Positions 1 through 12,375 of a DNA stretch of 12,850 nucleotides are shown piece after piece. Position numbers and translations under genes: made by a program. How positions within the stretch are numbered: position 1 is the first letter of the stretch; each line of letters starts with the position of its first letter. The notes beneath the pieces were generated by a model. That model did no database searches and was not told the DNA's origin. It saw only the letters and a list, made by a program, of their open reading frames with translations. The stretch comes from Candidatus Termititenax sp. (GTDB taxonomy: Bacteria; Margulisbacteria; Riflemargulisbacteria; GWF2-35-9; DYQY01): the NCBI GenBank assembly GCA_020719045.1, contig DYQY01000002.1, forward strand, positions 135,014-147,863, written 5' to 3'.

Positions 1-10
1 TCAAACGTAC

Positions 11-100
11 AATAGTCTAAACGCACCCCCTCGACCCCCCTCGAAGCGTTTAGTTATTGAAACTTAAAAGGAGCATTCCCCCCAATGCTCCTTTTTAATT
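11..100 (+). ncRNA. candidate small RNA 1 with C-rich hairpin loops
   Basis: Two strong inverted repeats lie in tandem. Hairpin H1 pairs CTAAACGC (17-24) with GCGTTTAG (46-53); CAATA (10-14) with TATTG (55-59) can extend it past a small internal loop. Its 21-nt loop (25-45) holds two C-runs, CCCCCTCGA and CCCCCCTCGA. Hairpin H2 pairs 66-77 with 84-95 (12 bp, perfect) around a loop of exactly six C, and is followed on the plus strand by a T-rich stretch, so it could be the RNA's own terminator. No ORF fits here. The plus strand is preferred because C-rich single-stranded loops are the known arrangement in anti-Shine-Dalgarno sRNAs (staphylococcal C-rich sRNAs, rhizobial cuckoo RNAs). A minus-strand transcript with G-rich loops cannot be excluded. 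No promoter is visible; it may lie left of the window. Confidence 0.42.
66..95. terminator. perfect 12-bp hairpin with C6 loop, possible terminator
   Basis: The stem AAAAGGAGCATT / AATGCTCCTTTT encloses six C. On the plus strand it runs into TTTTTAATTTTC, and on the minus strand into TTTTAAG, so the shape is that of an intrinsic terminator, slightly better on the plus strand. Confidence 0.5.
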
Positions 101-169
101 TTCAAAAGAAACAATAATTATCAATATATATTAGATGAAATATATTAGTAAATATTCCGATATATTGTA

Positions 170-304
170 TATATTACGTTATCTAAGCGCCCCTCTTCCC
201 CCCAGCAACGTTTAGATAACGTAGTCTTAGAAGGGATGTCTCCCCCAGGACATCCCTTCATTAACAATAAAACAATAAAAAAGGCCTGCGTTTGCAGGCC
301 TTTT
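170..304 (+). ncRNA. candidate small RNA 2, paralogous C-rich-loop hairpins
   Basis: Hairpin H3 pairs ACGTTATCTAA (176-186) with TTAGATAACGT (212-222). The stem continues through a G-T wobble and two G-C pairs to 189/209. Its loop (190-208) contains CCCC and CCCCCC runs. Hairpin H4 pairs 230-240 with 249-259 (11 bp, perfect) around the loop TCCCCCAG. The bidirectional terminator at 279-304 would end a plus-strand transcript. H3 resembles H1 both in stem (TCTAARCGC ... CGTTTAG) and in having two C-runs in its loop, and each is followed by a shorter hairpin with a C5-C6 loop. The two units therefore look like tandem paralogues. The region before H3 (121-175) is very AT-rich with TATATT hexamers but no clear -35 box. 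The transcript ends are guesses. Confidence 0.42.
279..304. terminator. bidirectional intrinsic terminator after the glycogen operon
   Basis: The 11-bp stem AAAAGGCCTGC (279-289) / GCAGGCCTTTT (294-304) has the loop GTTT. On the minus strand the stem is followed by six U and further U-rich sequence, 26 bp past the glgA stop. On the plus strand it is followed by TTTTATTTTA, so it can also end a transcript coming from the hairpin region at its left. Confidence 0.85.
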
Positions 305-330: not shown

Positions 331-1797
331 TTAAACTGGATTAATCATTGATTCAAATAGCTCAATATAACTCTTTGCTGAAGCCTTCCAAGAAAAATCA
401 CAATTCATAGCATTGTGTCGTATCTTTTGCCATGCCATCTCATCATGATAAACCATTAATGAATCTCTAAGTGATTGCAGTAACTCATCACTATTATATC
501 CAGCAAAAACAAAACCATTACCTTTGTCATGCTCAAAGTCTTTAGCTAAATCAAAGTCTATAATCGTGTCAGCTAAACCTCCTGTTTCTCTTACAACTGG
601 AATCGTTCCATATTTCAAACTAATAAGTTGTCCTAATCCACAAGGCTCAAACCTTGATGGCATAATAAAAAAGTCAGATCCAGCATAAATAAGCTGAGCT
701 AACTTTGCATCATACTTAAGTATTACTTTGAATTTATTAGGATACTTTTCTTCTAATTCTTTTAATGACTTATGATAAATTTGATCACCTGTTCCAAGGA
801 TAACTATCTGAACATTGTGCTGTAAAAATGTTTCAAATATCTCAGATAAAATATCAAACCCTTTTTGCTCAGCTAATCTAGAAACAATCCCATACACAGG
901 AGTATCTTTTTTAAACTTCAAACCTACTTCATCTAATAAGGCTCTTTTATTTTCTGCTTTACCTTGTATCGTATCCCATGAGTACTTAACTGGGATTAAT
1001 TTGTCTTTATCAGGAGAAAAAACAGAATAATCTACGCCATTAATAATACCAGTCAAATCATCTTTTCTATTGATAAGCACACCCTGAAGTCCGCAACCAT
1101 ACTCATCTGTCTGGATCTCTTTGCTATATCTTTCACTTACTGTACTAATCTTATCAGCAAAGCAAAGTGCTGCTTTCATAAAATTAACTTTACCCCAAAA
1201 CTCCATCTTATCAACAGAAAAATAATCCCAACTAAGACTAGTTTTATCCATAATTTGTTTATCAAAAACTCCCTGATAAGCTAGATTATGAATAGTATAC
1301 AAGGACTTTATACCTTGGAAAAAATGATCAAGCTTAGCGTATTCTTTTAAGTAAACTGGTATTAAACCTGTTTGCCAATCATGGCAATGAATAACATCAG
1401 GTTTCCAATTCAACCTTTTAGCTAAAAGCAAGGCTGCTCGTGAAAAATAAATAAACCTTTCATCATTATCAGGATAATCGCCACTAGCATCTCCATAAAG
1501 ACCATCTCTATTATAAAACTGATCATTTTCAATAAAATAAATTGGTGTCTTAGAACCAGGGATACAAGCACTATAAGCCGCTCCGCTTATTGTTACTTTC
1601 CCAAGATGTACTTCAAGATTAGAAACCTCTAAAGTAGCGCCATAAGCTTCTTTGTTAATATTCTTATACCTTGGCATAACTACTATGACTTCGTGCCCTA
1701 ACTTAGTTAATTCTTTAGGTAAAGCACCTGCTACATCTGCTAACCCTCCTGTTTTTGCAAAAGGTACGACTTCTGAAGCAACAAACAATATTTTCAT
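331..1797 (-). CDS. glgA: glycogen synthase (ADP-glucose type, GT5)
   Basis: This 488-residue protein is full length for bacterial/plant-type starch synthase, which transfers glucose from ADP-glucose to the growing alpha-1,4-glucan chain. The N-terminal KTGGLADVAGALP (residues 15-27) is the GT5 nucleotide-sugar signature with Lys15. HCHDWQTG (137-144) carries the catalytic His139, and TIHNLAYQG (168-176) is typical. In the C-terminal GT-B domain, VSRLAEQKG (305-313) supplies Arg307 and Lys312, and EPCGLGQL (384-391) supplies the conserved Glu384. The ATG at 1797 is preceded by a very G-rich ribosome binding site, GAGGGGGG (1803-1810), 5 nt away. It is the last gene of the glycogen operon, 28 nt after the branching-enzyme stop, and is followed by a strong terminator. 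Its RBS is complementary over 9 nt to the loop of hairpin H1 at the left edge, so post-transcriptional control is conceivable. Confidence 0.96.
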   Translation of the reverse strand: MKILFVASEVVPFAKTGGLADVAGALPKELTKLGHEVIVVMPRYKNINKEAYGATLEVSNLEVHLGKVTISGAAYSACIPGSKTPIYFIENDQFYNRDGLYGDASGDYPDNDERFIYFSRAALLLAKRLNWKPDVIHCHDWQTGLIPVYLKEYAKLDHFFQGIKSLYTIHNLAYQGVFDKQIMDKTSLSWDYFSVDKMEFWGKVNFMKAALCFADKISTVSERYSKEIQTDEYGCGLQGVLINRKDDLTGIINGVDYSVFSPDKDKLIPVKYSWDTIQGKAENKRALLDEVGLKFKKDTPVYGIVSRLAEQKGFDILSEIFETFLQHNVQIVILGTGDQIYHKSLKELEEKYPNKFKVILKYDAKLAQLIYAGSDFFIMPSRFEPCGLGQLISLKYGTIPVVRETGGLADTIIDFDLAKDFEHDKGNGFVFAGYNSDELLQSLRDSLMVYHDEMAWQKIRHNAMNCDFSWKASAKSYIELFESMINPV

Positions 1798-1825
1798 AAT
1801 AACCCCCCTCTACACTATGTATAAA

Positions 1826-10651: not shown

Positions 10652-12322
10652 TTAATCTAAGGAAACACAAAACCCACAATCCGTCATTCCATCTAAAACA
10701 AATGTTCTAATATCTTCACCATATTTCTGACTAGCTTCTTTACCACCAAACCTAAGAATACAATCCCTATATAAAAGTTTGGATCTTGCTGTAACAATCA
10801 TTCCTATATTCTTAATAATCTCTGGACTTAAAGAGTTAACCTGTGCAAAAAAATTTAACCAAAAATTATTTAATTGTTGTTTGTCAGTGTTTTCCTTTCC
10901 ATAACACAAAAGATAATTTATCATTTTTATTTTTTCACTGAATTCAGAATAACTCAAAAGAGAACCTTTTGTGTCTTTATACGTAGCCTGTTTCACTAAA
11001 ACAAGAATCTCTGAAATTGTATTCCTAAACCAATCAAGAAAAAAATCAAATACTTGTTTCAATTGACCATGCAACTCCACAAAATCAAAATTATTTTCAT
11101 CATCAAAACAACTAATAAAAGCAGAAAACATTATATAGGTATATGGATACATAAACTCAGTATCAGTATCTAAAAACCATCCGTCACTCATATATATGTA
11201 TAATAATTTTTTAGCAGCCTCAATATCATTTCTCTTAATAGCCACATCTACAATGTTCTGTAATGGTCCCTTTAAATGCATAGTAGTTGGCATCCATTCA
11301 GTAAGAACTTCATTCATTACTGTTAAAACATTTTCTTCTATTGAAGATATTGCATTCACTATTGCTATTTCTTCCTCGTTTAAATTAAAATCTTCCAACA
11401 AATCATGAGAAATTTCATGATAAGAAAAATTTTCTACCATTCTAGAAATAAAATCTTCCTTCACGCTGACTAAATCACTTTCTTTTTCCACAGAAAAACA
11501 ATCAAAAACCTTTTTCTTAATTGCATCAGAGACTTTATTCTCTAAGTCGTTTCCCATAAAACCATACATGAACGAATCAATTTTAACAGCTGGTACCCAT
11601 TTTTTATAAAAAATATACTCACAAACTTCTCTTCTGATTGCTATTTGGTTTTGATCTATAACAGCTACAATATAACTAACAGCATTTGGAGTTCGCATTT
11701 CTTCCTTATAAAACTGGTGTATATCGTAAGTATGATATTTATTAGAACTAGCTACACCATAAATCATAGTAACAAACTCTCCGGATGACCCCATCATAAC
11801 TCTACGATTACTACCTAATATTTGTAATAATTTATTAAGTTGCTCAGTTTCAGTAAAAGAAAATTGCATATCAAAAACTCTTATAACCGGATTTTTTATT
11901 ATTTCTAGTAATTCTGAGTCACTTTTATTTATTAAATCATGAAAGTTTGCCGTTTCAGCAATGCGAGCTTCTCCTAATTCAAACTCACTATAAGATAAAT
12001 CTTCGTTAGCTTGTTTTTCCAATAGAACAGAAAAAAAAGAATTCTTCACTCTATCCTGACCAGCATCTGACCAATTATTTGATTTCTTCATATATAAATA
12101 CTGGACTATTGCGTAATACTGCACATATCCATAAATTGAATGTTCAGCAAGCATACCCAAATCATCTATAATTTTGGGAATATTTTTTAATTCGCTTTTC
12201 TTTTCTAAATACTCCGACAAAAGAATCAATTTTTCAGATTCTACTAATTTTTGTAATATTTTTGAAAACTTCTGAGAATATTTCTTTTCAACTTCTATAA
12301 TACTTGTTTCATTTTTCCCCAT
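10652..12322 (-). CDS. uncharacterised 556-residue protein with HEXXH motif
   Basis: I do not recognise a family. The ATG at 12322 is chosen because GAGGGGG (12330-12336) lies 7 nt before it; the longer in-frame start at 12355 lies inside a terminator-like hairpin. The protein is largely helical, without a signal peptide or obvious membrane segment. Residues 301-306 read YHEISH, an HEXXH motif as in gluzincin metallopeptidases. Glu329 and Glu330, 23-24 residues past the second His, could be the third zinc ligand. A further striking stretch is WMPTTMHLKGPLQ (343-355). The C-terminus carries CGFC (549-552), four residues from the end. A single HEXXH can occur by chance, so a peptidase role is only a possibility. 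It is followed 3 nt later by the 486-residue protein gene, probably in one transcript. Its RBS matches the H3 hairpin loop over 8 nt. Confidence 0.85.
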   Translation of the reverse strand: MGKNETSIIEVEKKYSQKFSKILQKLVESEKLILLSEYLEKKSELKNIPKIIDDLGMLAEHSIYGYVQYYAIVQYLYMKKSNNWSDAGQDRVKNSFFSVLLEKQANEDLSYSEFELGEARIAETANFHDLINKSDSELLEIIKNPVIRVFDMQFSFTETEQLNKLLQILGSNRRVMMGSSGEFVTMIYGVASSNKYHTYDIHQFYKEEMRTPNAVSYIVAVIDQNQIAIRREVCEYIFYKKWVPAVKIDSFMYGFMGNDLENKVSDAIKKKVFDCFSVEKESDLVSVKEDFISRMVENFSYHEISHDLLEDFNLNEEEIAIVNAISSIEENVLTVMNEVLTEWMPTTMHLKGPLQNIVDVAIKRNDIEAAKKLLYIYMSDGWFLDTDTEFMYPYTYIMFSAFISCFDDENNFDFVELHGQLKQVFDFFLDWFRNTISEILVLVKQATYKDTKGSLLSYSEFSEKIKMINYLLCYGKENTDKQQLNNFWLNFFAQVNSLSPEIIKNIGMIVTARSKLLYRDCILRFGGKEASQKYGEDIRTFVLDGMTDCGFCVSLD

Positions 12323-12340
12323 AATAATTCCCCCTCTTAA

Positions 12341-12375
12341 ATAAACAGGAAGCATCTACGATGCTTCCTGTTTAT
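12341..12375 (-). terminator. 15-17 bp hairpin between the repeat protein gene and the 556-residue gene
   Basis: ATAAACAGGAAGCAT (12341-12355) pairs perfectly with 12361-12375, the stem can be extended at both ends, and the loop is CTACG. On the minus strand it is followed by TTTAAG, a weak U-tract. It follows the stop at 12392 by 17 nt, so it probably terminates the repeat-protein mRNA at least partly. It also ends 5 nt before the G-rich RBS of the next gene, so it could equally act as a 5' stem-loop protecting that mRNA. Confidence 0.65.

Follow-up and report, generated by a model that had tools for sequence, protein, structure and literature searches.

The window, meaning the whole stretch of 12,850 nucleotides that was analysed (G000:C22:135014-147863), is immediately preceded by a run of 100 N. 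It opens on the last codons of a small-protein gene, which are followed by two pairs of C-loop hairpins (here unit 1 and unit 2) and by a convergent glgA gene. The features that enter into the argument are these:

3-20, plus strand: end of the third copy of a small-protein gene of about 74 amino acids (last five codons and stop, KRTIV*); the second copy, L009 8655-8879, ends identically
10-59, plus strand: unit 1 hairpin 1, with loop and inner region CACCCCCTCGACCCCCCTCGAAG and the stop codon in its 5′ arm (from the fold and from copies upstream and in G001)
66-106, plus strand: unit 1 hairpin 2, with a CCCCCC loop and a T-rich tail; intrinsic-terminator-like
137-166, plus strand: ECF-type promoter-like site in front of unit 2, GAAAT-16-CGATATATT, weaker than consensus
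173-225, plus strand: unit 2 hairpin 1, with a 17-bp stem and a loop containing CCCCTCTTCCCCCC (from the fold, the alignment and pair counts)
230-259, plus strand: unit 2 hairpin 2, with a 12-bp stem and a loop containing CCCCC (from the fold)
279-304, both strands: bidirectional intrinsic terminator common to unit 2 (plus) and glgA (minus)
331-1797, minus strand: glgA, a glycogen/starch synthase gene by its sequence and by the name of its relatives (open reading frame and family homologues); convergent neighbour and candidate target
1802-1811, minus strand: G-run ribosome-binding site of glgA, TAGAGGGGGG, in which GAGGGGGGT is complementary over 9 nt to ACCCCCCTC in the loop of unit 1
10652-12322, minus strand: gene of unknown function with the G-run ribosome-binding site AGAGGGGG (12330-12337); second candidate target

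Hairpin pairs and the small-protein gene

Folding placed the four hairpins at 10-59 (core 17-53), 66-95, 173-225 and 230-259; comparison with dinucleotide shuffles gave z-scores of -7.6 and -9.2. Within the 12.85-kb window, five of the nine C or G runs of five or more fall in the loop of a perfect stem 8 bp or longer; in 200 shuffles the mean was 0.035 and the highest count one. An earlier note, made from the letters alone, had described four near-perfect stems exposing C-runs, and all four were recovered in slightly longer form. Its proposal that the pairs are related copies of one unit is borne out by a covariance model that was built on the second pair and also detects the first. The interval 1-330, which it took to be free of genes, is not: a small gene truncated by the 100-N gap has its last coding bases at 3-20.

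The rest of this third gene copy lies in or beyond the assembly gap preceding the window. Two tandem 74-codon genes are found upstream (L009 8242-8466 and L009 8655-8879), each with a strong ribosome-binding site and with the same C-loop hairpin from the stop codon onward; the first copy also has the C-loop terminator hairpin, and the second runs into the gap. Since bases 3-20 end a third gene copy and hairpin-bearing copies stand upstream, the first hairpin pair is read as the 3′ end of the small-protein mRNA. The gap itself (L009 8915-9014) separates near-identical repeats, and the number of small-gene copies in G000 is uncertain. The small-protein ORF is real and under protein-level selection by codon evidence, with dN/dS values of 0.15 between G002 and G005 and 0.20 between the tandem copies. 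None of the eight proteins showed DUF1127 or any convincing family when scanned with Pfam and NCBIfam, and a comparison of the small protein with solved structures returned nothing significant.

Conservation of the structure and its tie to the gene

A search of 75 genomes, 74 from the phylum and one from outside it, found the small protein in all seven genomes of the order and nothing convincing in the others. The covariance model detected the RNA in the same seven genomes, always at this locus and at one locus per genome, and not in the remaining 68. Common to the seven is a small gene followed by a double C-loop hairpin that overlaps the stop codon. In five relatives from the order's second family, a single unit comes after the gene, and its first hairpin takes its 5′ arm from the coding end (NYVI or NCVI, then stop). 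The second pair of the window is the orthologue of this single unit, and its first hairpin, which is orthologous to the order's stop-codon hairpin, has no coding region in the window's genus: both species have lost the coding part of unit 2, so that unit 2 stands alone and unit 1 remains with the gene copies. Other double C-runs in G000-G006 were also considered, and those that were folded are not C-loop hairpins of the kind described here. In viral contigs the loop pattern was not matched.

When the seven single units are aligned, 99.4% of cells are paired (35-45% in slid controls) and 8 of 27 pairs differ on both sides; the covariation score of 0.347 compares with 0.018-0.097 in slid versions. 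This alignment was fitted to the structure, which favours pair counts and covariation score. The second hairpin of unit 2 has changes on both sides in 6 of its 11 pairs. The C-rich loop of 13 bases, CCCTCTTCCCCCC, is invariant among the unit 2 orthologues and was so already in the sequence-only alignment that preceded fitting. Fourteen cells of the seven-unit alignment are G-U pairs on the plus strand; the opposite strand would have C-A mismatches there, which identifies the plus strand as the RNA strand. A minus-strand RNA of glgA was ruled out by these G-U pairs and by G003, in which the element has no adjoining glgA and no close glgA was found in the genome.

The two hairpin pairs are thus real, evolutionarily maintained RNA structures, in keeping with the structural constraint that the earlier note had supposed, now seen on the plus strand as compensatory changes in the stems and C-run loops that stay the same. 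A mobile repeat scattered at random, which the note had named as a result that would overturn its view, is rejected by the finding of one locus per genome. Its duplicated unit stands, with a twist that it did not foresee: one unit is tied to duplicated gene copies, and the other is the older unit, from which the gene was lost. Its candidate small-RNA family holds as a structured plus-strand RNA under constraint, but this structure is the 3′ end of a small-protein mRNA and not just a small RNA from a stretch devoid of genes.

Such an element might act in cis only, as a stable mRNA 3′ end at which transcription stops and exonucleases are held off; a stop codon placed in the stem would then couple translation termination to RNA stability. 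The second hairpin of unit 1 is terminator-like, with a T-run directly after it that matches an intrinsic terminator, and the stop codon lies within the first hairpin in every member that has the gene. Neither stability nor termination would need an invariant C-rich loop of 13 bases, however, and the stems and loops of unit 2 are retained in two species without its gene; several relatives, moreover, have no T-run after the second hairpin. A purely cis-acting role is therefore considered rather unlikely. The explanation preferred here, and judged somewhat better than an even bet, is a conserved small-protein gene with a double C-loop hairpin RNA as its 3′ end, the C-loops repressing ribosome-binding sites that contain G-runs. 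In combining invariant C-run loops with stems that vary, the element resembles RNAs whose loops do the pairing.

Relation to known C-loop RNAs and the ECF-type promoter

No Rfam family reached its gathering score in the window and five homologous loci, and the weak-threshold matches, among which 6C does not appear, contain nothing meaningful; the impression of the earlier note that the arrangement belongs to none of the known families is upheld to this extent. Three known systems come closest. In 6C RNA and mycobacterial B11, hairpins carry 5-9 C in their loops and one of them is the terminator; the C-rich terminator loop of B11 pairs with G-tracks near the ribosome-binding sites of its targets (PMC12395582). 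The present locus, too, carries C-runs of roughly six in the loops of two hairpins. The candidate targets glgA and the gene at 10652-12322 have G-run sites with good duplex energies; a genome-wide signature of such targeting was not found. The locus differs from 6C/B11 in its host organisms, in the lack of an Rfam match, and in a first hairpin that has two C-runs and overlaps the stop codon of a small ORF.

At the CIN1 locus of alphaproteobacteria, CcaF1 (71 amino acids, DUF1127) is co-transcribed from an alternative-sigma promoter with the tandem RNAs CcsR1-4 of the cuckoo family (PMC10253847, PMC8625941). The likeness extends to a protein of about 70 amino acids, to tandem C-loop RNAs in the 3′ region, and to an alternative-sigma promoter in front of both, here of an ECF-type pattern (33 occurrences against 0 in the control) and in CIN1 of RpoH type. 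The protein described here is, by contrast, not DUF1127, the loop is CCCTCTTCCCCCC and not the CCUCCUCCC of cuckoo/CcsR RNAs, and the g1 locus repeats gene and RNA together where CIN1 repeats the RNA alone. The alpha-r14 RNAs, such as NfeR1, similarly hold a fixed anti-Shine-Dalgarno loop on the variable stems of several hairpins (PMC10746234); they differ in having three hairpins with CCUCCUCCC, and the description in that source ties them to no small ORF. The arrangement thus works like 6C/B11 and CIN1 (DUF1127-CcsR) and is a member of neither.

CcaF1 binds the CcsR RNAs (PMC10253847), a precedent for the idea that the loops are a platform for a protein, whether a poly-C-binding or cold-shock-type protein or the small protein itself. 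Protein and RNA are co-inherited in seven of seven genomes, which also speaks for this idea. Set against this are the lack of any recognised RNA-binding domain in the small protein and the hydrophobic, membrane-like N-terminus of its members outside g1, and a platform of this kind is held to be very unlikely. The locus is an independent case of the alphaproteobacterial design of small protein and C-loop RNA. With it come a family of RNAs and one of small proteins, neither of them found in Rfam, Pfam and NCBIfam, and no described small RNAs were found in the literature for these bacteria.

The small gene is preceded by an ECF-type promoter, GGGAA/GCAAC-16-CGATA, for which about 30 other sites were found in the order. 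The motif occurs 26 times in eight genomes against two in the reversed control; with the upstream element included (GSRAM-16-CGATAWMTTA), the counts are 33 and 0. Its layout is that of ECF sigma promoters, and it is called ECF-type on this account. The sites of the g1 gene copies are the top scores of their loci, and those in other genera are weaker. In front of unit 2, the promoter-like site has the best PWM score in the window (10.0, the next being 4.2), but the reversed control reached 10.2; in the same place G001 has GCAAT-16-CGATATATT, which scores 11.8 and ranks third in its locus. Unit 2 in the window's genus is perhaps a free small RNA that has lost its gene and kept a weaker promoter copy, and the locus appears to catch the step at which a 3′-end RNA turns into a gene of its own.

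Two further observations concern promoter-led loci. In G005 and G002 (L176 about 1370-1480, minus strand; L177 1442-1560, plus strand), an ECF-type promoter is followed at once by another C-loop hairpin, GCAATGATACTGATGG...ACCCCCCCCAACCCCCC...CTATCAGTATCATTGC, which precedes a 46-aa ORF with an AAGGGG ribosome-binding site; this element is a second C-loop RNA in these two genomes. Among loci L165-L217, many promoter-led genes encode unrelated-looking proteins with a similar N-terminal stretch (M..KIIAN, M..KIISC, KIVS), which could be a shared N-terminal signal.

Candidate targets of the C-loops

By the preferred explanation, the 3′ part of unit 1 would be released from the small-protein mRNA as a small RNA and unit 2 would be made as one from its own promoter. 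The exposed CCCCCC and CCCTC stretches of both would pair with G-run ribosome-binding sites and repress translation, with glgA and the gene at 10652-12322 as the best candidate targets. Through its exposed C-runs the RNA can probably obstruct translation initiation at other genes, the neighbouring glgA for one. Four C or G runs of five or more lie outside hairpins in the window, and two of them are the ribosome-binding sites of these two genes. The duplex with the glgA site, at -23.9 kcal/mol, is the best of 26 genes tested in G000, and glgA ranks first in G000 and G006 and second in G004, in a ranking that used a sample of candidate genes instead of the whole genome and left out the G001 glgA, for which the wrong start had been chosen. 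Relatives of the gene at 10652-12322 in G002 and G005 sit directly behind an ECF-type promoter. GGGG near the start was found in 10 of 27 promoter-led genes and in 14 of 100 others (p about 0.01, with orthologues counted separately and hence not independent).

Several results speak against pairing. Genome-wide enrichment of G-run ribosome-binding sites was not found in the order relative to the rest of the phylum; the G-run of glgA is short (GGG) in G002 and G005; and G037 and G022 have a G-run at glgA though they are without the RNA. The gains from joint folding, -6 to -10 kcal/mol, are modest, with one control gene reaching -7.4 with unit 2, and pairing needs the full hairpins to be opened or their loops to be reached. 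An AGAGGGG before the ATG, considered as a mark specific to glgA, is not rare enough to single that gene out. C-loop pairing to glgA is accordingly regarded as a good hypothesis, not a result, and one that a fixed loop and a named neighbour target make directly testable with reporters.

The small gene might instead limit itself, its strong ribosome-binding site (AGGAGGTGAG) being the partner of the C-loops. The g1 copies do have a strong Shine-Dalgarno sequence, and CACCCCC of unit 1 is complementary to GGAGGTG at all but one position. The CACC is missing from the unit 2 loops of relatives, however, whose own ribosome-binding sites vary (TTGGAG in G006, ATGGGTGG in G004), and the fixed loop CCCTCTTCCCCCC has no specific match to the sites of its own genes, leaving self-limitation highly improbable. 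A broader scheme, distinctly unlikely as a whole, would have an ECF-type sigma regulon of this uncultured order carry its own brake: the C-loops in the tail of the small-protein mRNA would shut down regulon genes and glycogen synthesis at their G-run ribosome-binding sites, a ribosome that terminates within the stem would open or close this tail, and the RNA would have escaped its gene in one genus to become a free small RNA.

Three observations on G-run genes may be added. A perfect hairpin (AATAAACAGGAAGCATCGTAGATGCTTCCTGTTTATT) lies at 12323-12372 on the minus strand of the window, just upstream of the G-run ribosome-binding site of the gene at 10652-12322. The likely start of this gene is 12322, the ORF list placing it 11 codons too early. 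Near the locus, a G-run ribosome-binding site (GGGGG or GGGGGG) also belongs to the first gene of a chemoreceptor-like protein in four of the five genomes inspected (gene positions L135 891-2951, L137 11473-13515, L133 11968-13977 and L009 2794-4803).
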